Below are positions 7,845 to 39,507 of a stretch of DNA of 64,000 nt, in pieces. The notes under the pieces are model-generated. The model was not told where the DNA came from and ran no database searches. It worked only from the letters and a program-made list of their open reading frames with translations. The stretch lies in the NCBI RefSeq assembly GCF_006546655.1, contig NZ_VIAQ01000015.1, positions 124,001 through 188,000 of the forward strand. The letters run 5' to 3'. The DNA is from Methanolobus vulcani (lineage in GTDB: Archaea > Halobacteriota > Methanosarcinia > Methanosarcinales > Methanosarcinaceae). Both the position numbers and the translations under genes were made by a program. How positions within the stretch are numbered: position 1 is the first letter of the stretch; every line of letters starts with the position of its first letter.

Positions 7845-8114
7845 ATGTTATTTTTCGATATAAGCACATGGGACCCGCAGGATAATGAAAAGGTAATTGA
7901 ACATTTCAAGAATCTCAGGCCGCCTGCAGGAATAACAATAATCAACCAGTGGGTAGACCTCAATGGAGGACGCTATTTCATACTTTACGAGGCTGAGAGC
8001 AACGAAGCATACGCAGAATTTAACATTCCATGGTCCGATGTCTGTCTGATTGACAGTGTTCCGGTAATGGAATCGACCGATTTTATCAAGCTGATGATCT
8101 CAAAGGGATTATAA
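7845..8114 (+). CDS. DUF3303-like small methanogen protein
   Basis: An 89-residue protein beginning MLFFDISTWDPQDNEKVI, with the conserved blocks QWVDLNGGRYFILYEAES and NIPWSDVCLIDSVPVMES. These match the DUF3303 family, common in methanogens and of ferredoxin-like alpha-beta appearance. The ribosome site AGGAG lies nine bases before the ATG. It is monocistronic, flanked by genes on the other strand. Function unknown. Confidence 0.75.
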   Translation: MLFFDISTWDPQDNEKVIEHFKNLRPPAGITIINQWVDLNGGRYFILYEAESNEAYAEFNIPWSDVCLIDSVPVMESTDFIKLMISKGL

Positions 8115-8146
8115 ATCTATTTTGACTTAATCATCAAGACTTTCCT

Positions 8147-8758
8147 TTATTCTTTTTTGTTTTCTGTCAGGCTTATCACTTTCTTACGATTTCCTATCTT
8201 TACTGTAAAATCGCCTTCCGGTAATGTGCAAGTATCATATTTCCGGTGAAATCTGCCTTCATTGTCAGCTTTGATGGTCTGCGTTGCCAGAAAGTCCAGT
8301 CTGACATCATTCTCACCTTCAACAGCATTTCCGCTAATGATGATTTCATAATCTCCTTGGGGAACGTTCTTTTCATAGAACTGTGCAATTCCATTCTCCG
8401 CATCAAAACTGCGTTTAAAGTCAACAAACATCCTCACAATGAAAGTAAGGTCATGGACTTTCTGTGCCATTACCTGGAAACTATTGCTTCCTCCCGGAAT
8501 TCCCACTTTTTCAAACAAATGTTCGTATCTGTTATCTGTTACAGGGGCAATAATTGAAAACGAGACTGCCATTGTGATGTTTTCATTGGCTCCGGTTCTG
8601 CCCGTTATGTCCAGAATGTCACCCGTACATGGACTAAGTGGAAAAAAGCTCCACTCTTCCACAATTGCTTCGGGATTTCCTTCCCTGTGTTCAGTTGTTA
8701 AAGAATAAAGTGCCTTTGAAAAATTTAAAAAGAGGTTGTTATCTTTGCTGAAGGGCAC
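8147..8758 (-). CDS. Hypothetical protein, beta-rich
   Basis: 203 residues with no family I recognise. There is no signal peptide or membrane helix. It is rich in predicted beta strands with a C-terminal part (PEGDFTVKIGNRKKVISL) resembling an Ig-like or peptidase-regulatory sandwich. The start is a GTG with an AGGAGG ribosome site almost touching it, which is unusually close; no alternative in-frame start lies nearby. It follows the phasin-like gene by 15 bp, so the two are probably co-transcribed and may act together. Confidence 0.6.
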   Translation of the reverse strand: MPFSKDNNLFLNFSKALYSLTTEHREGNPEAIVEEWSFFPLSPCTGDILDITGRTGANENITMAVSFSIIAPVTDNRYEHLFEKVGIPGGSNSFQVMAQKVHDLTFIVRMFVDFKRSFDAENGIAQFYEKNVPQGDYEIIISGNAVEGENDVRLDFLATQTIKADNEGRFHRKYDTCTLPEGDFTVKIGNRKKVISLTENKKE

Positions 8759-8773
8759 TCCTCCTTTTCAGGC

Positions 8774-9118
8774 TTAAAGGTCTTCCTTATTGTCGGAGTC
8801 TACTAATTTGTCTATCTTGGCTTCAAGACTTGAAATTATATCTTTAAGTTCCCTGACTTCATCCTTTGTTGCAACATCTGCCTTGGTGATGGTATCCTGG
8901 ACTTTTGATGAGATCTTCTTTTCAAGTTCTTCCTTCTGCTTCTTCTGTTCGTCCATTACTTCACGGACAAACTTCTTGCCTTCTTCCTTTTTGATCTCCC
9001 CATTTTCGACAAGATCATCAGTGATGTCCTGTATCTTTTCTTCAGTCAGTGCCCATAAGCCAATTCCAAAAAGACCAACTTTTTTCATGACTTCTGTGAT
9101 GTCTGTAACGTCTTTCAT
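8774..9118 (-). CDS. Phasin-like coiled-coil protein
   Basis: 114 residues: a short hydrophobic helix near the N-terminus (VGLFGIGLWALTEEKIQDITDDLV) followed by a long charged coiled coil (KKEEGKKFVREVMDEQKKQKEELEKKI). This layout is that of the PhaI/phasin family, which coats polyhydroxyalkanoate granules in bacteria. In methanogens, which are not known to make such granules, the role is open; binding to a membrane or protein surface is plausible. First gene of a two-gene unit with the hypothetical protein downstream. Confidence 0.65.
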   Translation of the reverse strand: MKDVTDITEVMKKVGLFGIGLWALTEEKIQDITDDLVENGEIKKEEGKKFVREVMDEQKKQKEELEKKISSKVQDTITKADVATKDEVRELKDIISSLEAKIDKLVDSDNKEDL

Positions 9119-9207
9119 TTTAAACCTCCAATGATTAATTAGCAGGTGTTAGAATAAAAATCTTGTTCTGGAAATATGACTACGTCTGGAACTAATATAC
9201 CAGCAGC

Positions 9208-9237
9208 AAAAAAAGAGTTGCGGGCCCGAAGGCCAAC
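9208..9237 (-). terminator. UUCG-hairpin terminator of atwA
   Basis: Downstream of the atwA stop the minus strand reads GGCC-TTCG-GGCC, a GC stem closed by a cUUCGg tetraloop, with outer GTT/AAC pairs after a small bulge. Seven T follow (9208-9214). Confidence 0.75.
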
Positions 9238-9241
9238 GTGA

Positions 9242-10963
9242 TTAATTCTCTACAAGTTCATGCAGGTCATGCTCGAGATACTTTGCATTGCTCATTTCAA
9301 TGAGCTTCTGGCAAACATCTTCCGGGCTTCCATCCATTGTGATCTCTGCATCGTCTATAAGAATAGCCCTATGTGCCGCTTCCTTTACAAAATCGGTATG
9401 ATGACTTACAAACACAATTGTAGTGCCGAATTTCCTGTTTATGTTCTTCAGGGAATTGGTCACATCCCTGAGTGTCACAGGGTCAAGGTCACCGAATGGT
9501 TCGTCAAGCATGAGTATTTCAGGACTTGTGACAAGTGCCAGTGCTATGTATGCCCTGACATGTTCTCCACCGCTTATCTGGTATGGTGTTTTGTCCAGGA
9601 TTGACATTGGAAGGTCAAGTGTTTCAAAAACCTCGGCAGCTTGAGTGTCAACAGTGCCTTTGGTTATTGAAGGGAATAGTTTTGCATAAATGTCAATGGA
9701 TAAACCAATCTCACGGAGAGCCTTGTCCTTTTCTTCCTCGGTAACTTCAGTTATCCTGTAAAGTGTATCGAGATTTTCATCAGAGATGCCAAGTTCAGCA
9801 GCTTTCTTCCTTGCATACTCCAGAGAACCTTCGCCTTTCAGACGGAGTCTGAATGCCAGTTGGTCTCTTATTGTAGAGTGTGGCGACAGGGTGAAATCCT
9901 GGTGCATAATGCTCATCTTACTGCGAAGATCCAGGCGTTGTATGGTAAAATCAATGATATTGAGCCACTTTCCGTCATGAAGGTATGTGATCTCTCCTTC
10001 TTTAGGGAATCTGAGACCTTCTATCATTTTAAGTAGTGTTGTCTTTCCGGAACCCGATGGTCCGATAAGGGCAGTTATCTCTCCTTTATTTATGTCAAGG
10101 GAAAGGTCTTCGAATTTCAGGACTTCTCCTACACGCAGCAGAGCAAAGCGGTTTGAAAGTCTTCTCACTTTTATGATAGGTTCCTTGCTGGTAATCTCTG
10201 CCAGAGGAGTCTGCTCTTTGATATCCTTTAGGAAATGTTTCAGCACATCTTTAGCTTCTCCAGTTTCGATAACTTTTCCTTCTTCAAGGTAAACAACCTT
10301 GTCTGCAAGGTAAAGGTGGATCTCCGGTAGGTGTGAAACAACAACAATCGGAATGTTAAGTTCTTTTCTGATGTCTTTTATTACATCAAGCATCTCCTGT
10401 TTTGTACCGGGATCGGTCATTGTTACCGGTTCGTCAAGGAGTAGAAGTTTTGGTTTTGCTGCAAGCTGGCGGGCAAGTATGAGTCTCTGTTTCTCGCCAC
10501 CGCTTAACAGGTTTGAAGAGTGTTTTGCTTTGTGTTCAAGCCTGACAAGGCGCATGTAGTACATTGCCTCTTCGTACATCTCATCATAATGAAGTGCATC
10601 TGGCTCAGGTAATCCTTCGTGACCTTCTATAATGTAATTCAGCTTGCGAATGATATTTTCAATGGCAGGGCCGTTCCAGAGTCCGAAATTGCGCTGAAGG
10701 TGTATTGCACTGTTGTGGGTCAGGAATTTGATTTTTTCCCTTTCAGGATTTGGTTCTATCCTTTCTCCATTCAGCTCAAAGTAACCGGAATCAAAGTCCT
10801 CAATACCACGAAGAATCTTCAAAATAGTAGTTTTCCCACTGCCGCTCTTTCCGGTAATTCCTAATATTTCACCGTCTGCAACATCAAAACTTACATTATC
10901 AAGAACTCTTTTTTTGTCACCATTGAACTCGTATTCTTTAACGATATTCCGTACTTCAAGCAT
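9242..10963 (-). CDS. atwA: Methyl-coenzyme M reductase system component A2 (AtwA)
   Basis: A soluble twin ABC-type ATPase without membrane segments that takes part in ATP-dependent reductive activation of methyl-coenzyme M reductase. First cassette: Walker A GKSGSGKT at residues 38-45, signature LSGGEKQR at about 153, Walker B LLLLDEP at about 173. Second cassette: Walker A GPSGSGKT at about 301, signature ISGGEHVRA at about 463, Walker B LMLDEP at about 484. The insert between the second Walker A and signature, about 150 residues, is characteristic of A2. Start: the ATG at 10961-10963 has GGAGGT six bases upstream; a TTG two codons earlier is less likely. It lies downstream of the GGGP synthase gene but after an oligo-T tract. 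Confidence 0.93.
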   Translation of the reverse strand: MLEVRNIVKEYEFNGDKKRVLDNVSFDVADGEILGITGKSGSGKTTILKILRGIEDFDSGYFELNGERIEPNPEREKIKFLTHNSAIHLQRNFGLWNGPAIENIIRKLNYIIEGHEGLPEPDALHYDEMYEEAMYYMRLVRLEHKAKHSSNLLSGGEKQRLILARQLAAKPKLLLLDEPVTMTDPGTKQEMLDVIKDIRKELNIPIVVVSHLPEIHLYLADKVVYLEEGKVIETGEAKDVLKHFLKDIKEQTPLAEITSKEPIIKVRRLSNRFALLRVGEVLKFEDLSLDINKGEITALIGPSGSGKTTLLKMIEGLRFPKEGEITYLHDGKWLNIIDFTIQRLDLRSKMSIMHQDFTLSPHSTIRDQLAFRLRLKGEGSLEYARKKAAELGISDENLDTLYRITEVTEEEKDKALREIGLSIDIYAKLFPSITKGTVDTQAAEVFETLDLPMSILDKTPYQISGGEHVRAYIALALVTSPEILMLDEPFGDLDPVTLRDVTNSLKNINRKFGTTIVFVSHHTDFVKEAAHRAILIDDAEITMDGSPEDVCQKLIEMSNAKYLEHDLHELVEN

Positions 10964-27853: not shown

Positions 27854-28357
27854 TTATGCAAATGGGTGTGCTGCACTGTCCTTTTTAGCAAGTGCTTCAT
27901 CAACGGTAGGAATTCCGTCAACTGCACGTTTGATTGCAAGTTTCGTTGCTTCGTAGTTGAACTCGTAGATCTTATCCTTGTCTTTAGCATCCCACTCGAT
28001 GAATACTGAAACAATGATAAGAAGGTCTTCAGCCTCATCTTTTGGAATAACTCCTTCTTCCACACTGTCCATTACAGCTTTTGCAATGGATGCCTGAGCA
28101 GGTCCGAACATCAGGGATGCCTGTGCCACATTCTTTATTGTTACCTTGTTTACAAGGAGTGTTGCTGGTTTTGGTGTAACATTCGGTTCAAGTACAGCAA
28201 GTAAAGGAGAATGTCCCTGTCTTGGCATTGCAAGTGAATTCATGAATGCGTTCTCAACAGCACTTCCTTTTCTTCCTATCACAAGGTCTATGTGAGCAAC
28301 TTCCGGTCCTTCGCCAACCAAGGCTTCGCCTACCAGACTATTTATTATCTTTGTCAT
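27854..28357 (-). CDS. fae: Formaldehyde-activating enzyme
   Basis: 167 residues. It condenses formaldehyde with tetrahydromethanopterin or tetrahydrosarcinapterin to methylene-H4MPT in the cytosol. Family blocks: LVGEGPEVAHIDLVIGRKGS with the catalytic-base His22, PRQGHSPLLAVLEPN, VNKVTIKN, FGPAQASIAKAVMDSVEEG and IPKDEAEDLLIIVSVFI. This is the stand-alone form, not the Fae-Hps fusion also found in methanogens. It is divergent from an HxlR regulator across 147 bases that contain a palindrome. Confidence 0.95.
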   Translation of the reverse strand: MTKIINSLVGEALVGEGPEVAHIDLVIGRKGSAVENAFMNSLAMPRQGHSPLLAVLEPNVTPKPATLLVNKVTIKNVAQASLMFGPAQASIAKAVMDSVEEGVIPKDEAEDLLIIVSVFIEWDAKDKDKIYEFNYEATKLAIKRAVDGIPTVDEALAKKDSAAHPFA

Positions 28358-28392
28358 ATTATCTCCTCAATCAGGACTCCTGAGAAATGCAT

Positions 28393-28410
28393 TGTATGAT
28401 TTGTCATACA
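28393..28410. promoter_or_regulatory. Palindrome between fae and hxlR
   Basis: Perfect seven-base arms TGTATGA and TCATACA around TTTG, 36 bases upstream of the fae start. A second symmetric element, TCAGGA-C-TCCTGA, lies at 28371-28383 within the fae leader. Candidate operator for the divergent HxlR protein. Confidence 0.5.
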
Positions 28411-28504
28411 TAAGTCATTTCTACCGACCCTTATTTTCACTTAATACCTACTATGAGAACATGTAAATACTTATTCTAACCATTTGGTAACCTGGTGAGA
28501 AATC

Positions 28505-28882
28505 ATGGGAGACCTGGAACGCAGTCCTATAGACATGGCAATAAAACTAATAAGCAAGAAATGGACGCTCAACATCATCAGGGATATGTTCTGTGGAAAA
28601 AAGCAATTCAATGAATTCTTAAAAAGTAATCCAAAGCTTAGCAGCAAGGTGCTGTCTACTAAATTGCGTCAACTGGAGCAGGACGGGTTGATAGAAAAGG
28701 TCATCGTATCCAAGACACCGGTTACCATAGAATATCACCTGACCGATAAAGGAAAAAACCTGAATAAAGTGCTCTATGAACTCTCTGGTTTTGCATACAG
28801 GGAGTGTGCTGATGAGTTAACTCCTGAATGTACGGAGCACAGCTATGAACTAACTAAAGAGCTGTTGAATATAGAGGATTGA
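28505..28882 (+). CDS. HxlR-family transcriptional regulator
   Basis: 125-residue MarR-like winged helix of the HxlR/DUF24 family (LISKKWTLNIIRDMFCGKKQFNEFLK ... LSSKVLSTKLRQLEQDGLIEK ... EYHLTDKGKNL). In Bacillus, HxlR turns on formaldehyde-fixing genes and senses formaldehyde through an N-terminal Cys. Here the residue before the conserved Pro is Ser7, so that mechanism is not conserved; Cys30 and two C-terminal Cys remain. Divergence from fae makes fae its probable target. GGTGA precedes the ATG. Confidence 0.88.
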   Translation: MGDLERSPIDMAIKLISKKWTLNIIRDMFCGKKQFNEFLKSNPKLSSKVLSTKLRQLEQDGLIEKVIVSKTPVTIEYHLTDKGKNLNKVLYELSGFAYRECADELTPECTEHSYELTKELLNIED

Positions 28883-31293: not shown

Positions 31294-32454
31294 TTATATA
31301 TTCTGCCGGCGGTTGATAGAATACATCTGTATCTTCTTCATCTTTGCGAGGTTCATGGCATTTTTCATCTCCTTTTCCTCAAGCAGACGGGCATCAATAT
31401 AACCATTGTCCACTGCCTCGTTGAAAATCTCATATCCAATGCTGGAACGTGCAAGAACTGTAGTCCAACCCTGAGGGGTACCCACACCTCCAAATGAGAT
31501 ATCTGAATTCTCAGCCGCCATGTCGGTGCAGTATTTGCATGAACTGCTCCTGTACTGGTCAAACTCATCAAGCGGGAAAACCCTGAGTTCATCCTGTGTC
31601 TGGAACTCGAATTTGCCCTTGCGGATTTTCATCGATTCAATATCTGCAAGCTTCATATCCCTGTTCTCAATGAACTCTTTGATACCTTCGTAGTAGAAAG
31701 TATCCATGCAGAATAGGCCCATTTTCAGGATATTTGCTCTCATGAAATGGTGCAGGAAACCCTGCGGACTTTTCTGCATCTTGGTGACCGCATCGATATT
31801 ACAGCTTGGTCCGACAAAAGCAATGCTTCTCATGCCCTCTTTTACCGCGTCCATCAAAGCCTTCAGGGTCATGCTATGGCTGTAAATGCTGCCGGAACCT
31901 TCAAGGATGTCCTCATAGGTCTTTGCAACAATAGGAACAGGTTTCCAGGGCTCTTCTTCTGATTTGGTGGTTACAATAGCGCAGTCAATGAGTCCTGCAT
32001 CCAGTGCATATCCAAGCATGGCAGTCACAACGCCGCCATCCTGGCCGTTAATCTCAGGCAGAGCTGACTTTGCACAGTAAGCGTTACGCAGCTTACCAAC
32101 CAGCCCGTTTTCAGTAGTAATGGTTCTTGGACACTGGTTGTAACAAACACCACATGCTGTACACTTGTCTACAAGAGTGGGTGTTTCATCCTTAATAACA
32201 ATAGAATCACAGGAAGCAGCGCAGGCTCCGCAAAGAGTACAGATTCCAGGCTTGATAATATCTTTCCTGAGCTTTCCAAAAGAGATCTTTTCCTGTTCAG
32301 CTATGGACTTCTTCAGGCGTACGACTCTCTTTTGAACAATATCAAATTTATCTTTACATTCAGGCGAGCAGAAACTATATTTTTTTCCTGCATAATTTGC
32401 AGAATATGAGTTATCTTCCTGCACCTTATTTTTACATATAGGATCGATAGGCAT
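31294..32454 (-). CDS. YHS-domain / FrhB-type F420 oxidoreductase fusion
   Basis: 386 residues in three parts. Residues 1-40 are a YHS/TRASH metal site (Cys7, then YSFCSPEC with Cys29 and Cys33). Residues about 68-115 are two 4Fe-4S ferredoxin sites (CTLCGACAASC and CTACGVCYNQC). The remainder is the F420-binding FrhB/FpoF/FdhB flavoprotein domain (GQDGGVVTAMLGYALDAGLIDCAIV, FVGPSCNIDAV, KYCTDMAAENSDISFGGVGT). Proteins with this core move electrons between F420H2, FAD and iron-sulfur centres. It is divergent from a small siroheme reductase at 32714; the two together match the halves of F420-dependent sulfite reductase. Confidence 0.85.
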   Translation of the reverse strand: MPIDPICKNKVQEDNSYSANYAGKKYSFCSPECKDKFDIVQKRVVRLKKSIAEQEKISFGKLRKDIIKPGICTLCGACAASCDSIVIKDETPTLVDKCTACGVCYNQCPRTITTENGLVGKLRNAYCAKSALPEINGQDGGVVTAMLGYALDAGLIDCAIVTTKSEEEPWKPVPIVAKTYEDILEGSGSIYSHSMTLKALMDAVKEGMRSIAFVGPSCNIDAVTKMQKSPQGFLHHFMRANILKMGLFCMDTFYYEGIKEFIENRDMKLADIESMKIRKGKFEFQTQDELRVFPLDEFDQYRSSSCKYCTDMAAENSDISFGGVGTPQGWTTVLARSSIGYEIFNEAVDNGYIDARLLEEKEMKNAMNLAKMKKIQMYSINRRQNI

Positions 32455-32509
32455 CGTAATCTCCCAGGATCGCGGATGTCCTTAGTATAATGTGTACATT
32501 GTTCTTATT

Positions 32510-32517
32510 GTATAAAA
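32510..32517 (-). promoter_or_regulatory. TATA box of the YHS-FrhB gene
   Basis: Minus strand GTTTTATAC. Expected start about 32486, leader about 30 bases. Confidence 0.45.
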
Positions 32518-32530
32518 CTAAATTTGAATT

Positions 32531-32566
32531 TAATAATCATGATGGTTCGCTGCATAATGATTATTA
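32531..32566. promoter_or_regulatory. Large palindrome in the divergent promoter region
   Basis: Perfect ten-base arms TAATAATCAT and ATGATTATTA separated by 16 bases. It lies between the presumed promoters of the YHS-FrhB gene and the siroheme reductase, fitting a shared operator, though a hairpin is also possible. Confidence 0.55.
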
Positions 32567-32713
32567 GTTATAATTATTATTTATGAGAAATTTTGAGGCA
32601 TAATGTTTTTACACGATATGCCATATCAACTAGACTTGTTTTTAAATTACTGAATGTGCATTTCATTACATAATTCATTAAACAAAATACCAACTGGAAC
32701 AGAAGTGACCCAA

Positions 32714-33568
32714 ATGGTAAAAACCAACACAAACAAAGACCTGCTCAAGGAGAAAGGTTTCCTTTCCCAGAGGCAGGAAGATTTCTTTTCAATGCGCCTG
32801 CATGCTGCGGGTGGAAATCTGACATCCGACTACCTGAGGGCAGTTGCAGATGCAGCAGACCGTTATGGCAAAGGCTATGTTCACGTAACTTCCCGCCAGG
32901 GAATTGAAATTCCGTTCGTCCATCTGGATAATACCGAAGCCGCCAGAAATGAAATGGATTCTAATGACATAGGGCCTGGAGCTTCAGGCAAAAAAATACG
33001 TGCTGTAGTTGCCTGTCAGGGAGACAGAGTGTGCAAACGAGGCCTCATCGACTGTCAGGGACTATGCGAAGAAATAGATAAGCTCTATTTTGCAGAACCT
33101 GTTCCATATAAATTCAAGATAGCAGTAACAGGTTGTCCTGCATCATGTCTTAAAGTTCAGGAGAATGATTTTGGTATCATGGGATTCTCTGAACCGATTT
33201 TTGTGGAAGAAAATTGCGTAATGTGCAGAGCTTGCGAGAAAGCATGTGGTACATCAGCCATAACAATAGAGAATGGAAGTCTCTATCTGGATATGCATAA
33301 ATGTGTGTCCTGTGGTTCATGTATCAGGGCATGCCGAAAAGATGCCATTCAAAGTAGGGAACAGGGATTCACAATATTTGTCGGTGGTAAAGTAGGTAAA
33401 AAGCCACGTATGGGTGATATGCTACTCAGGACATCAGACCGGTCGGTTGTTTTTGATGTACTTGAAAAATCCGTGAATTACTATCGTGAAAATGCTCTGG
33501 AAGGCGAAAGACTCGGTGATGTGATCGATCGGGTAGGCCTTGATGATTTCAGGGAAACAATAATGTAG
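32714..33568 (+). CDS. Small dissimilatory sulfite reductase-like protein
   Basis: 284 residues. The N-terminal part is the sulfite/nitrite reductase ferredoxin-like fold (GFLSQRQEDFFSMRLHAAGG, VHVTSRQGIEIPFV). The siroheme-4Fe4S ligand set is complete: C-x5-C (Cys101, Cys107 in CQGDRVC) and C-x3-C (Cys141, Cys145 in TGCPASCLK). Two ferredoxin sites follow (CVMCRACEKAC and CVSCGSCIRAC). This is the Dsr-LP type of methanogens. It could reduce sulfite or another small anion. Start: the ATG at 32714 has AAGTGA five bases ahead and begins at the conserved region; an ATG at 32654 is less likely. Confidence 0.87.
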   Translation: MVKTNTNKDLLKEKGFLSQRQEDFFSMRLHAAGGNLTSDYLRAVADAADRYGKGYVHVTSRQGIEIPFVHLDNTEAARNEMDSNDIGPGASGKKIRAVVACQGDRVCKRGLIDCQGLCEEIDKLYFAEPVPYKFKIAVTGCPASCLKVQENDFGIMGFSEPIFVEENCVMCRACEKACGTSAITIENGSLYLDMHKCVSCGSCIRACRKDAIQSREQGFTIFVGGKVGKKPRMGDMLLRTSDRSVVFDVLEKSVNYYRENALEGERLGDVIDRVGLDDFRETIM

Positions 33569-33843
33569 CTTTGATTGTCGCAGAGATAACGTATTCCTCT
33601 TTTGTGTGCAAACGTGAAAGTAATCTTAAGAGTTTGTCATCAGGTATTGCGTTTCTGTCCTTTTATAGCGGGGGCTTTTATCAGTCCCCTGACACATTTT
33701 TCTCTCATAAAACTAATAATGAGTGATGAAGGTACACTGATTTTTTTATCCTGATTTCGACACAGTCTCCTTTTTTTAAGACCATATTTATATATGTAAT
33801 CATATTTATTCTTACCTTATATCTTAAGGGGTATTTGATTCAC

Positions 33844-34779
33844 ATGTCATTATTAACGAAAGGACTTATCGCTCTGTTCTTCTTATTAATCATAAGTAAC
33901 GGGGTTACAGGTTCAGAAAACGAATATGCATCAGAAGAGCAACAAATGCTTGATCTTATCAACGAGGAAAGAGCATTATATGATCTTGAACCACTAAGCT
34001 TCAATGCAATCCTGAACGATGTTGCAAGTGAGCACAGCAAAGAAATGATTGAAAAAGATTACTTTTCTCATGATTCCTATGATGGTACTTCTTTTTCAGT
34101 AAGGATGGAAAATGCAGGTTATGATATCCTATATGCAGGTGAGAACATTGCTATGCGTTATCCTCCGGATCTCATTGCAGCCCATGAGGGTCTTATGAAT
34201 TCTCCAGGGCACAGGGCAAATATTTTAAATCCAAATTACAACGAGATTGGAATCGGTATCTGGGTTGGTGAATACTCCGGTTACAGCAACGTTGCCATGT
34301 ATACTCAGGATTTTGGCTGGAGTGATTCAGCAACTCCTTCTTTACAGGTAACAAGCAAAAGTCCAACAAGCAGTATAACTGAATCTGATGGATCTACTCA
34401 GGTATTTTCCATCAACACAAACATCGAATGTGATATTTCCTGGTTATTTGATGATGAGACCATTAAGGTCGATAATAATGTTGTGTCTTCTTATTGTGAA
34501 ATAGTTCCCCCGGCAAGCGGAACTTATCAGGTAAAGGCAACAGCATCAGATCAAGGTGAAGACTTAGTGACTCAGTGGACGTGGACTGTCACAGAAGAAA
34601 CTGTCCAAATGAAAGGGGATTCCAATAATGATGGTAAAGTGAACATTATTGACTTTAGAGCATTTGCGCAGGTTTATAAAAGCGCAACCATCGAATCAAG
34701 CAAATGGGCAGATTTCAATGATGATGGTTTGATAAACATTATTGATTTTAGGGCATTTACACAGGTGTATAACAAATAG
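33844..34779 (+). CDS. Exported CAP-domain protein with C-terminal dockerin
   Basis: Signal peptide (LIALFFLLIISNGVTG), then a CAP/SCP-PR1 domain at about 25-165 (MLDLINEERALYDLEPL, ASEHSKEMIEKDYFSHDSYDG, GENIAMRYPP, MNSPGHRANILNPNYNEIGIGI). An Ig/PKD-like sandwich follows at about 170-255. The last 55 residues are a type I dockerin-like pair of calcium loops (DSNNDGKVNIIDF and DFNDDGLINIIDF). It is outside the cell; the dockerin should dock to a cohesin or fold as a calcium-stabilised end. I prefer the ATG at 33844; a TTG three codons earlier is possible. TATA at about 33787-33795. Confidence 0.85.
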   Translation: MSLLTKGLIALFFLLIISNGVTGSENEYASEEQQMLDLINEERALYDLEPLSFNAILNDVASEHSKEMIEKDYFSHDSYDGTSFSVRMENAGYDILYAGENIAMRYPPDLIAAHEGLMNSPGHRANILNPNYNEIGIGIWVGEYSGYSNVAMYTQDFGWSDSATPSLQVTSKSPTSSITESDGSTQVFSINTNIECDISWLFDDETIKVDNNVVSSYCEIVPPASGTYQVKATASDQGEDLVTQWTWTVTEETVQMKGDSNNDGKVNIIDFRAFAQVYKSATIESSKWADFNDDGLINIIDFRAFTQVYNK

Positions 34780-34909: not shown

Positions 34910-35893
34910 ATGAACGCAGAAACCAAAGCTCAACTTATTTCTGTGGGTTCTGTAAATATGGACCCCTCACTTATCCACTGGCTAACCATTCCCACAGCAG
35001 GTCCCGGAGCAGGAAACATTGCTTTCTTTTTCAACTCTGAAGGACACCGTGTCCGTCTTGCTGTAAAAGAGAATTCCCCTCTGGAAGCTAAAATGGAAGG
35101 CGAGGCGCTTGTAATAAGAAAAGATGGAGTAGAGATTGCCAGAGGTATTATTGAAGAAGAGCTTATCCACTGTCCTGATCAGGCGTTCATAACCATGTGC
35201 GAGAAATGCATCTATGACTGCAAATTCTGTCCGGTTCCCAAACTCAACGGTAAGGTCAAGAGCATGGAGCAAATGCTTAAGATGATAGCAGAAGCCAACG
35301 AGACTGGTAGGATGAAAGCTATTTCAATTACTTCCGGTGTGGAAATCTCAGCCGAAGATGAAGTTGACAGAGCTGAAAAACTTATCCGCAGGCTCAGGGA
35401 AAAGTACAATGTACCAATCGGAGTTTCAGTCTATCCTACCGAGGATTCAACCTGCAGACTAAAATTTGCAGGTGCTGATGAGCTCAAATACAACGTTGAG
35501 ACAATGGACCGCAAACTCCACGCAGAATTATGTCCTGAACAGGAACTCGAATATCTGCTTGATGCTCTCAGGGAAGGAGTAAAGGTATTTGGAAAAAACA
35601 AGGTTTGTTCCAATGTCATTATCGGTCTTGGAGAAACTGATGAATCTGCAAAAAAGGGAATTGAAGAGCTTGTTTCAATCGGTGTTGTTCCGATTCTCAG
35701 GGCAGCCGCAAAGCACCCTCTGCGCGAAGGCGAGGTTACAATAGAAAGACCGTCTGCAGAAAGATTACTTCATCTTAACCGTTTCCTGAAAGAGAAACTG
35801 GATGAAGCAGGTTTGCGTGCAGATACTTTTAAGACGATGTGCCTGCCGTGTACTGGATGTGACATCAATCCTCATATTGATTTTGAAGATTAA
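34910..35893 (+). CDS. Radical SAM protein
   Basis: 327 residues. The cluster motif CxxxCxxC is CIYDCKFC, preceded by another Cys (CEKC). A biotin-synthase-like barrel follows (ISITSGVEISAEDEVDRAEKLIRRLR, GVSVYPTEDST, VCSNVIIGLGETDESAKKGIEELVSIGVVPILRAAAKHP) with a C-terminal CLPCTGCD that could bind a second cluster. Resembles BioB/HmdB-type enzymes, but the product is not evident. AGC-rich ribosome site GGAGC six bases before the ATG. It stands alone. Confidence 0.82.
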   Translation: MNAETKAQLISVGSVNMDPSLIHWLTIPTAGPGAGNIAFFFNSEGHRVRLAVKENSPLEAKMEGEALVIRKDGVEIARGIIEEELIHCPDQAFITMCEKCIYDCKFCPVPKLNGKVKSMEQMLKMIAEANETGRMKAISITSGVEISAEDEVDRAEKLIRRLREKYNVPIGVSVYPTEDSTCRLKFAGADELKYNVETMDRKLHAELCPEQELEYLLDALREGVKVFGKNKVCSNVIIGLGETDESAKKGIEELVSIGVVPILRAAAKHPLREGEVTIERPSAERLLHLNRFLKEKLDEAGLRADTFKTMCLPCTGCDINPHIDFED

Positions 35894-36492: not shown

Positions 36493-36723
36493 TCATCGTA
36501 TCCTTTTCTCAATAATTCCGGGCCATACAGAAGCTGCCACTATCATACTGAGAATAAAAACAAAGATCATACCTGCAATGATATCAACCTGACTATAGAG
36601 CGGTACGGTTCTGGAATTATTAACCGCAATTGACAGAACTGCAAAAACAACCACAAGTACGAGTGAAGAGGCAACGCTGGCAATAAAAGCATACTTTCCT
36701 TTATTCTCCAAAATATTATCCAT
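36493..36723 (-). CDS. Small two-helix membrane protein downstream of copA
   Basis: 76 residues with helices at about 13-33 and 44-66. GGAGATG precedes the ATG. It lies 15 bp after copA and so is likely part of the copper operon; a role as copper or assembly accessory is inferred from position only. Confidence 0.65.
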   Translation of the reverse strand: MDNILENKGKYAFIASVASSLVLVVVFAVLSIAVNNSRTVPLYSQVDIIAGMIFVFILSMIVAASVWPGIIEKRIR

Positions 36724-36738
36724 ACGTTCATCTCCTCT

Positions 36739-39507
36739 TTATTTTATCCTGCTTCTCTTCATTAGCAGTGAATTGGTTGTAACCGATACGGAACTCATGG
36801 CCATGAAAGCCGCTGCAAGTTCCGGTGTTATGACGATCTTTGCAATAAATGGGTAAAGAATCCCTGCTGCAAGGGGAATTCCAATACTGTTGTATCCAAA
36901 TGCCCAGAACAGGTTCTGCTTGATCTTGTTCATAGTCAGGCGGCTGAGCCTGATAGAAGCCAGTACATCCCTGAGGTCGTTCTTTATCAGGACTATCTGT
37001 GCAGACTCCATTGCAATATCGGTTCCCGCTCCCATTGCAATACCGATATCTGATTGTGTCAGTGCAGGTGCATCATTTATTCCATCACCTACCATTGCAA
37101 CAATCATGCCTTCATCCTGTAGTTTTTTGATCTCAGATGCCTTGTCTCCGGGAAGAACCTCTGAGAGCACTCTCTTGATACCAAGCTGTGATGCAATGGC
37201 ATCGGCAGTTCTCCTGTTGTCTCCGGTTATCATCACAACTTCAATATTCATCTTCTGAAGTTTCTCAACTGCTTCCTTTGAGTTCTCCTTGAGTGTATCT
37301 GCAACGGCAACAAGTCCGATTACGCTACCTTCTGTTGCAACTATCATGGCAGTCTTGCCTTCGGACTCAAGCTTTTCCATGTTTTCGTTGATTGAAGACA
37401 CATCAATACTATTATCTTCCATGAGCTTACGGGTTCCAAGCAGTATTCTGCTGCTATCAATCGTAGCTTCAACTCCGTGTCCTGCGATTGAATTAAAATG
37501 ATCAACGCTTTTCAGGGTGAGTTCTTTATCTTCGGCGGCCTTTACAATAGCTTCTCCCAGAGGATGCTCGGAGCCTTTCTCTGCGCTTGCTGCAATTGCA
37601 AGTATTTCATCTTCCGCGTGTCCGGCGGTTAGTATCACATCTGTAAGTTCAGGCTTGCCTTTAGTGAGTGTGCCTGTTTTATCAAACACAATGGTATCGA
37701 TTTTCAGTGTAGTTTCAAGGGCTTCTCCGCCTTTGATAAGAATTCCATTCTCGGCTCCTTTTCCTGTGCCAACCATGATGGCGGCAGGAGTTGCAAGTCC
37801 AACGGCACATGGGCATGAAATTACAAGAACTGTGATTGAGATTAGCAGTGAGAACAGGAACGGACTTTCAATTCCTGAATTAACGGCAGCATTGAATGCT
37901 TCGTATCCAATGAAATACCAGAAGAAGAATGCAACAAGTGCGATTACGTGCACGACAAGAATAAAGTGACCTGCAACAACATCAGCAATGCGCTGTATTG
38001 GTGCTTTCGAGTTCTGTGCGTTCTCCACAAGCTCGATAATTCTTGCAAGGGCAGTGTCAGCACCGACCTTGGTTGCCCGGAATTTCAGTGCACCAGACTT
38101 GTTGATGGTTGAACCTATCACCATGTCATCGACATTTTTCTCAACAGGTATGCTCTCACCTGTTATCATGGATTCATCAATTGCAGAGGAGCCTTCGATA
38201 ACAACCCCATCAACGGGAATCTTCTCGCCGGGTCTTACAAAAACAATGTCATCAGCCTGTACATCCTCAACAGGAATTTCCTTTTCCTCATCTGCAACGA
38301 TGATACGTGCGGTCTTTGCTTGAAGTCCAATGAGCTTTTTAATGGATTCGGATGTTCTTCCCTTTGCCCTTGCTTCAAGGTATCTGCCAAGTGTTATGAA
38401 AGTGATAAGCATCACAGCGGTGTCATAGTACACATGCTCGTAACCGGGACCAAGGTTCAGGTAGGTAGCTGCGATACTGATAACATAAGCAGCACCTGTT
38501 CCGGTTGCAATGAGCAGGTTCATATCGGTAACGCCATGCTTCAGGCCTTTGTAGGTGCCGACAAAGAATTGTCTTCCTGGGAACACCATTACAATAGTTG
38601 CCAGCAGGAACAGCAGGTTCTTGTTTGAAAAGAAATCAGGTACAAATCCAAAGTATGCAGGGAACATGTTGCTCATGTTTCCAAGCATTATGGGGATAAG
38701 AATTACAATGGATATCAGCAGGTTATTTCTCTGGCTTTTGATCTCTTTTTCTCTTTCTTTTCTTTCCCTGTCTTCAGCTTCATGTCGGTCAGCCGGCAAA
38801 GAGGCGGTGTATCCTATACCTTCAATAGCTTTTCTCATCTCATCAACTGAGACAAGTGATGAATTGTACTCTACCTGTGCTCTTCCGGTTGTGATATTCA
38901 CATTTGCGGAGCTCACACCTTTGAGTCTATTAAGTACCTTTTCTACATTCTGCGAACAGGCGGCACATTTCATGCCTCCAACTTCAAGTACAACTCTGTC
39001 CCTGACAACATGGTAACCAATTACATCAACGGCTTTTTCCATATCTTCAAGACTGACAAGTGCTGGGTCATAGCTTACTGATGCTCTTTCCATTGGCAGA
39101 TTTACTGAAGCCGATGTAACGCCATCCATCTTCTTCAAAGTTCTTTCAACATTCTGGGAACAAGCGGAGCATTGCATTCCTGATACTTTGAATGAAACTT
39201 CCTTTATAGAACCTGCTTCTACTTTATTATCTTCTGTTTCGTCATACTTTATTAAGATTGGACATGCAGCTTCATCTTCAGATTCCGGAACTGTGCAGGT
39301 ATCTTCTCCAACTTCATATCCTGCTGCTGTGATTGCCTGTTTGATTTCATTAAGAGTTATTGCATCCGGATTGAAATCAACAGATGCGTCCTCATCCTCA
39401 AGACTTACATCTACAGAGTTCACTCCTTCCAGATTTGATATTGCATCAGTGACGCGCTTATGGCAATGCATGCACGTCATGCCATAGACTTTGATATTAG
39501 CTTTCAT
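36739..39507 (-). CDS. copA: Copper-exporting P1B-type ATPase CopA
   Basis: 922 residues, long for the family because of three N-terminal heavy-metal domains (GMTCMHCH at 9, GMQCSACS at 110, GMKCAACS at 178). Eight predicted helices include the CPC ion site ([12 protein letters not shown] at 563-574). The actuator TGES, the phosphorylation DKTGTLT at 609-615, HPLGEAI (HP motif) and [10 protein letters not shown] are all present. Pumps Cu+ out of the cytosol. It is 37 bp downstream of copZ and in the same operon. Confidence 0.95.

Follow-up and report, generated by a model that had tools for sequence, protein, structure and literature searches.

In Methanolobus vulcani, a gene for an FrhB-type protein and a gene for a siroheme protein stand back to back, which raises the question whether their products form a split F420-dependent sulfite reductase (Fsr), as the initial annotation of this locus had proposed. 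The locus was analysed within a window, i.e. the whole stretch of 64,000 nucleotides taken from contig NZ_VIAQ01000015.1 (Table 1), and compared with homologous loci in other genomes.

Table 1 Features of the window discussed in the text (positions are those of the window).
Feature	Position	Strand	Remarks
Fae (formaldehyde-activating enzyme) and HxlR regulator genes	27854-28882		divergent
YHS + 2x[4Fe-4S] ferredoxin + FrhB-type FAD/F420 oxidoreductase (YHS-FrhB)	31294-32454	-	386 aa, intact ORF
YHS domain (DPIC..FCSPEC)	32341-32448	-	Pfam YHS
Perfect inverted repeat, 10-bp arms, TAATAATCAT-N16-ATGATTATTA	32531-32566	.	between the divergent genes; candidate shared operator
Group IIId Dsr-like siroheme/[4Fe-4S] protein with inserted two-cluster ferredoxin domain	32654-33568	+	304 aa as listed, intact ORF
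Secreted CAP-domain protein with dockerin domain	33835-34779		methanogen-encoded
Radical SAM gene	34910-35893		
Small membrane protein	36493-36723		
CopA-type P-type ATPase	36739-39507		

Domain anatomy of the two proteins

The two ORFs lie on opposite strands, approximately 200-260 bp apart, and they encode YHS, two-cluster ferredoxin, FrhB and siroheme domains, in agreement with the domain calls and coordinates of the initial annotation. The YHS domain of the FrhB protein (residues 3-38; 40.3 bits compared to a cut-off of 30.3) carries the DPxC and FCxxxC cysteines expected of such a domain. Both ferredoxin motifs are canonical (C72-x2-C-x2-C-x3-C82 and C98-x2-C-x2-C-x3-CP), and the FrhB_FdhB_N and FrhB_FdhB_C domains (PF04422 and PF04432; 87 and 149 bits) were found far over cut-off. 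C218, C249, C306 and C309 of the FrhB domain were invariant in the ortholog alignment, and the core residues overall (these cysteines, GQDGG and SIYSHS) showed high conservation or invariance. The closest PDB sequences in phmmer searches were the F420-reducing CODH subunit 8riu_B and Fsr, while an AF2 model (mean pLDDT 82) matched the folds of 8riu_B (TM 0.76), 8rja_E (0.75) and 7np8 (0.71). Judged by its N and C domains, its FAD/[4Fe-4S] residues and its predicted fold, the protein is a member of the FrhB/FdhB F420 oxidoreductase superfamily, which also includes the plant 7-hydroxymethyl chlorophyll a reductase (5dqr was among the matches).

The protein resembles FrhB and FpoF in its FrhB_FdhB N and C domains and its FAD and [4Fe-4S] residues, but it scored under the equivalog cut-offs of both (201 vs 331 bits for FrhB, 122 vs 475 bits for FpoF) and it has a YHS domain. 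Its best match in sequence and fold is the CODH zeta subunit, the F420 reductase of Ca. Ethanoperedens (8riu_B), with which it shares an N-terminal dicluster ferredoxin followed by an F420 reductase; however, the two are only 34% identical and belong to different clades, the YHS domain is a difference here too, and no CODH gene adjoins the FrhB gene. This YHS domain is the sole one detected in the M. vulcani genome and is missing from three Methanolobus FrhB paralogs. C29 of the domain is replaced by His in some ANME-2 orthologs, and in the M. profundi ortholog (L098:5178-6338) the domain is degraded, with the cysteine motif partly lost and the remainder of the protein intact. A literature search combining "YHS domain" and "FrhB" found no description of such a fusion.

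The siroheme protein consists of a nitrite/sulfite reductase half-domain (NIR_SIR_ferr, 69.5 bits) and a siroheme domain (NIR_SIR, 122 bits) with an inserted two-cluster ferredoxin, whose two Fer4 motifs (residues 188-198 and 217-227) would bind the peripheral and an additional [4Fe-4S] cluster. The siroheme-[4Fe-4S] ligands C121-x5-C127 and C161-x3-C165, already recognised as a complete set in the initial annotation, were invariant in an alignment of eight sequences, as were the sulfite-binding residues R48, R116, K153 and K155 (corresponding to R355, R423, K460 and K462 of Fsr). Because its relatives begin at M21, the ORF probably starts there (ATG at 32714). By its coupled motif, its extra clusters and the four Arg/Lys residues, the protein is classified as a group IIId Dsr-LP (PMC3448663). 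It is similar to the group IIId Dsr-LPs of Susanti and Mukhopadhyay 2012 (PMC3448663) and to AsrC (TIGR02912) in length, siroheme motif, clusters and the four Arg/Lys residues, but differs from both by its divergent FrhB neighbour, and from AsrC by scoring under the equivalog cut-off (175 vs 324 bits). An AF2 model of this protein had a pLDDT of 56 from too shallow an alignment and was left out of the inference. The siroheme protein and a short group-I-like Dsr-LP are the only two PF01077 proteins in the M. vulcani genome. Group III Dsr-LPs are common in methanogens and have been described as "biochemically uncharacterized" (PMC6286981). In a Methanoperedens-family genome, two different Dsr-LP genes form a tandem resembling a DsrA/DsrB pair (L140:5134-6962).

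Relationship to Fsr

The locus has much in common with group I Fsr (MjFsr 7np8, MtFsr 7npa, MiFsr 9tn7), namely homologous FrhB- and Dsr-type modules, two ferredoxin domains, the siroheme ligands and all four sulfite-binding residues. It differs from the single fused polypeptide of Fsr by its two separate, divergent genes, by the extra N-terminal YHS domain and by a canonical second ferredoxin motif. The FrhB protein lacks the extended loop by which Fsr (MtFsr 171-189) holds its partner ferredoxin domain (PMC10229431); in the phmmer alignment, approximately ten residues are deleted there. In phylogenetic trees, each protein was excluded from the Fsr I and II clades and fell in a different clade than its Fsr counterpart. 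YHS-FrhB formed a supported Methanosarcinales clade of its own, separate from Fsr-N and nearest to Asgard FrhBs, which are 44-52% identical to it and have no YHS domain. The siroheme protein fell in a Methanolobus/G139 clade, sister to the Dsr-LPs of Methanosarcina and Methanohalophilus; the next group outward comprised the Dsr-LPs of sulfate clusters, while Fsr I and II formed a separate clade. Fission of an Fsr is ruled out by the trees of both proteins. On the reading favoured here, YHS-FrhB and the siroheme protein are of separate ancestry and came to lie side by side, in divergent orientation, within the lineage of Methanolobus. The closest Asgard FrhBs (L226, L227, L233, L235 and L236, near 8000-9400) carry about 120 additional C-terminal residues, and HdrA-like genes lie near the FrhB gene in Loki and in one Hel locus.

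Distribution of the gene pair

Orthologs of YHS-FrhB (57-93% identity) occur in Methanosarcinaceae, ANME-2 and Methanoperedenaceae and, by the cut-off chosen in the analysis, in 112 of the 186 genomes of the order Methanosarcinales. Outside the order, a phylum sample yielded only proteins of at most 42% identity, and their alignments left out the YHS part, starting at the ferredoxin domain or close to it. YHS-FrhB is an uncharacterised F420-type protein that is conserved order-wide, Methanosarcina and Methanoperedens included, and carries a metal-binding-type domain as a fusion.

Among 27 Methanolobus genomes, YHS-FrhB was found in 24 and the siroheme gene of the window type in 15; the two are divergent neighbours in 14 of the latter, and in the remaining one (G128) the siroheme gene occupies the same site with FrhB gone. 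The conservation of the pair, which the initial annotation had put forward as a check, holds within Methanolobus but not in relatives outside it, where the genes are not neighbours. Ten Methanolobus genomes have an intact YHS-FrhB gene without a window-type siroheme gene, and in two of these the slot still contains decayed C-terminal pieces of the latter (G115, E=8e-11; G132, E=2e-8). These remnants indicate that the pairing is ancient within Methanolobus and that the siroheme gene has been lost repeatedly (at least three to four state changes), with FrhB retained; FrhB hence has a role independent of the siroheme gene. The case for coupling draws mainly on adjacency in this one genus, which is weak evidence, since the flanking radical-SAM/CopA block is syntenic too.

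Across the order, both genes co-occur in 14 genera, FrhB occurs alone in three, Dsr-LP alone in none and neither in ten (Fisher p 3e-5, phylogeny ignored). The presence sets were compiled by hand from homolog tables with E-value cut-offs, and many of the genomes are incomplete MAGs. At the genome level, a Dsr-LP is present without an intact YHS-FrhB in 22 genomes; the siroheme gene without FrhB occurs in many Methanosarcina and Methanoperedens genomes.

Association with sulfate assimilation

M. vulcani itself has a CysN-CysD-CysH operon (L291:5849-9191, G000:C4) that lacks the flanking Dsr-LP and PiT transporter of other Methanolobus, and PF01507 confirmed its CysH/CysD-type proteins. In the genus, a sister paralog of the Dsr-LP lies within CysH/CysD/CysN/PiT/TusA clusters, and clustered paralogs were also found with CysH and/or Sat in Methanohalophilus, ANME-2 and Methanoperedens-family genomes (outside M. 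vulcani, the names CysH, CysD, CysN, Sat, PiT-type transporter and TusA were read from the sequences of the neighbours). A group-III Dsr-LP was present in all 13 Methanolobus genomes with CysHD compared to 5 of 14 without (Fisher p 0.0006, phylogeny ignored); the independent phylogenetic contrasts number three to four, with none in the opposite direction, which is too few for significance. The window-type siroheme gene is present in each of the five Methanolobus genomes that have CysHD and lack a clustered Dsr-LP. Conversely, a clustered Dsr-LP is retained in every one of the three CysHD genomes in which the window type is missing (G114, G130, G132). In G125 a 46-aa remnant beside CysH (E=7e-15) is what is left of the clustered Dsr-LP, and the window-type gene is intact. 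The paralog of the sulfate cluster and the paralog next to FrhB appear to replace each other in Methanolobus. This apparent replacement, together with the CysHD pattern, points to the siroheme protein being most likely a sulfite reductase of assimilation or detoxification. On the other side, the window-type gene also occurs in five genomes that lack CysHD. The apparent replacement of paralogs in Methanolobus is a natural experiment, and both the role as sulfite reductase and the question of the donor can be tested in cultivated species.

The palindrome between the two genes

The perfect palindrome reported in the initial annotation was located between the two genes. Arms of 10 bp arise in 2% of dinucleotide shuffles of this AT-rich intergenic region, so the palindrome alone is only mildly unusual. 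Its core occurs once in the genome, and among close pair loci its conservation was 91%, compared to 78% for the remaining intergenic region, which suggests a shared regulation of both genes. However, the whole palindrome or its FrhB-side arm is retained in several FrhB-only genomes (G114, G130), and it is missing from three pair loci of other clades (L101, L102, L104). It is therefore not tied to the siroheme gene alone and was ruled out as a hallmark of the gene pair. It fits an operator, perhaps foremost one for FrhB.

Proposed function and alternative explanations

We infer substrate, electron donor and regulation from anatomy, conservation and genome patterns. The siroheme protein is probably a sulfite reductase of sulfate assimilation or detoxification, in line with the reductase function first suggested, as judged from its conserved residues and the co-occurrence with CysHD. 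As a free-standing group IIId Dsr-LP, it would reduce sulfite to sulfide in the cytoplasm, with nitrite as a possible alternative or side substrate, and would either complete the CysH-CysD-CysN route, replacing the absent clustered Dsr-LP, or detoxify sulfite. YHS-FrhB, with FAD and three [4Fe-4S] clusters, may accept electrons from F420H2 and pass them to ferredoxin-type partners, among which the siroheme protein would be a plausible acceptor, neither sole nor obligate. The palindrome between the promoters could mediate joint regulation. This explanation, with a Dsr-LP sulfite reductase and YHS-FrhB as a divergently encoded, plausible but non-obligate F420H2-derived donor under shared regulation, is the one we favour, at slightly better than even confidence. 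Native extracts of M. acetivorans showed no methyl-viologen:sulfite activity despite four Dsr-LPs (PMC9295563), which counts against a role as sulfite reductase. An alternative reading is that the siroheme protein is a nitrite rather than a sulfite reductase, or a siroheme-based redox sensor. In M. infernus Fsr, nitrite is bound by this set of four residues (PMC13381448), and the F420H2-dependent enzyme FsrII is a reductase of nitrite (PMC9295563); however, the sulfite-binding residues are substituted in FsrII (PMC9295563, PMC10229431) and all four are kept here, while the clustered relatives and the co-occurrence with CysHD indicate sulfur. The sensor, also raised in the initial annotation, finds no counterpart in the protein, which has no sensor output domain, and we regard this whole reading as improbable.

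The two proteins might also be unlinked neighbours, with an ordinary ferredoxin as donor to the siroheme protein and YHS-FrhB serving another system, e.g. metal or redox homeostasis near CopA or a general exchange of electrons between F420H2 and ferredoxin. The order-wide occurrence of YHS-FrhB without a fixed partner, its older radical SAM and CopA neighbours, the clustered Dsr-LP paralogs without an adjoining FrhB and the independent loss of either half all fit this explanation, whereas the genus-level co-occurrence and the palindrome conserved between the divergent promoters speak against it; we consider it a serious possibility, though not the probable one. A specific two-protein complex, in which electrons would pass from F420H2 via FAD and [4Fe-4S] clusters to siroheme and on to sulfite (or nitrite), seems to us unlikely. 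It is in keeping with modules identical in kind to those of Fsr, with 14 divergent pairs, most of them with a conserved palindrome, and with the co-occurrence at genus level. In addition, a complex of separate Fsr-N and Fsr-C subunits has been proposed as an evolutionary intermediate (PMC3448663), and an F420 reductase of the same fold docks CODH via its N-terminal ferredoxin domain (8riu, PMC11493965). Haloarchaeal aFsr, an Fsr-N homolog with aSir, offers a similar two-gene concept of F420-dependent sulfite reductase (compared by description only), but its aSir is of the assimilatory type and not a Dsr-LP (PMC3448663). Against such a complex, both proteins fall outside the Fsr clades, FrhB has no platform loop, and each gene persists without the other, FrhB in the ten Methanolobus genomes and the siroheme gene in G128 and others. 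The 22 genomes with Dsr-LP but without an intact YHS-FrhB make an obligate split Fsr unlikely. The split Fsr initially proposed is thus supported in part: the modules, the ligand sets and the divergent pair stand, while the phylogeny, the missing loop and the non-obligate pairing speak against it. Were the two subunits to cooperate nonetheless, they would form a convergent F420H2-dependent sulfite reductase in which a Dsr-LP is combined with a YHS-FrhB recruited independently, to which we give a rather low probability; if true, it would parallel the stage before fusion that has been hypothesised for Fsr and would provide sulfate assimilation in Methanosarcinales with a sulfite reductase without Fsr.

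Genomic neighbourhood of YHS-FrhB

No fixed gene partner of YHS-FrhB was found across the order, and its neighbours vary by genus. The older neighbours are the radical SAM gene and CopA, found in genera g9 and g14 too; in several Methanosarcinaceae genera the older syntenic block comprises the CopA-type P-type ATPase, the small membrane protein and the radical SAM gene. A search for a plasmid origin gave no match. The window also encodes the secreted CAP-domain protein and the Fae/HxlR pair listed in Table 1. L109 and L111 each have a homologous Fae/HxlR pair in the vicinity of an FrhB paralog that lacks YHS (L109:6322-7449, L111:6689-7735); upstream of this paralog are genes for a DUF2193 protein and a MIP channel. 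In Methanolobus bombayensis, a YHS-less FrhB paralog directly follows larB-, larC- and larE-like genes, named by eye from the sequence (L110:4142-8236).
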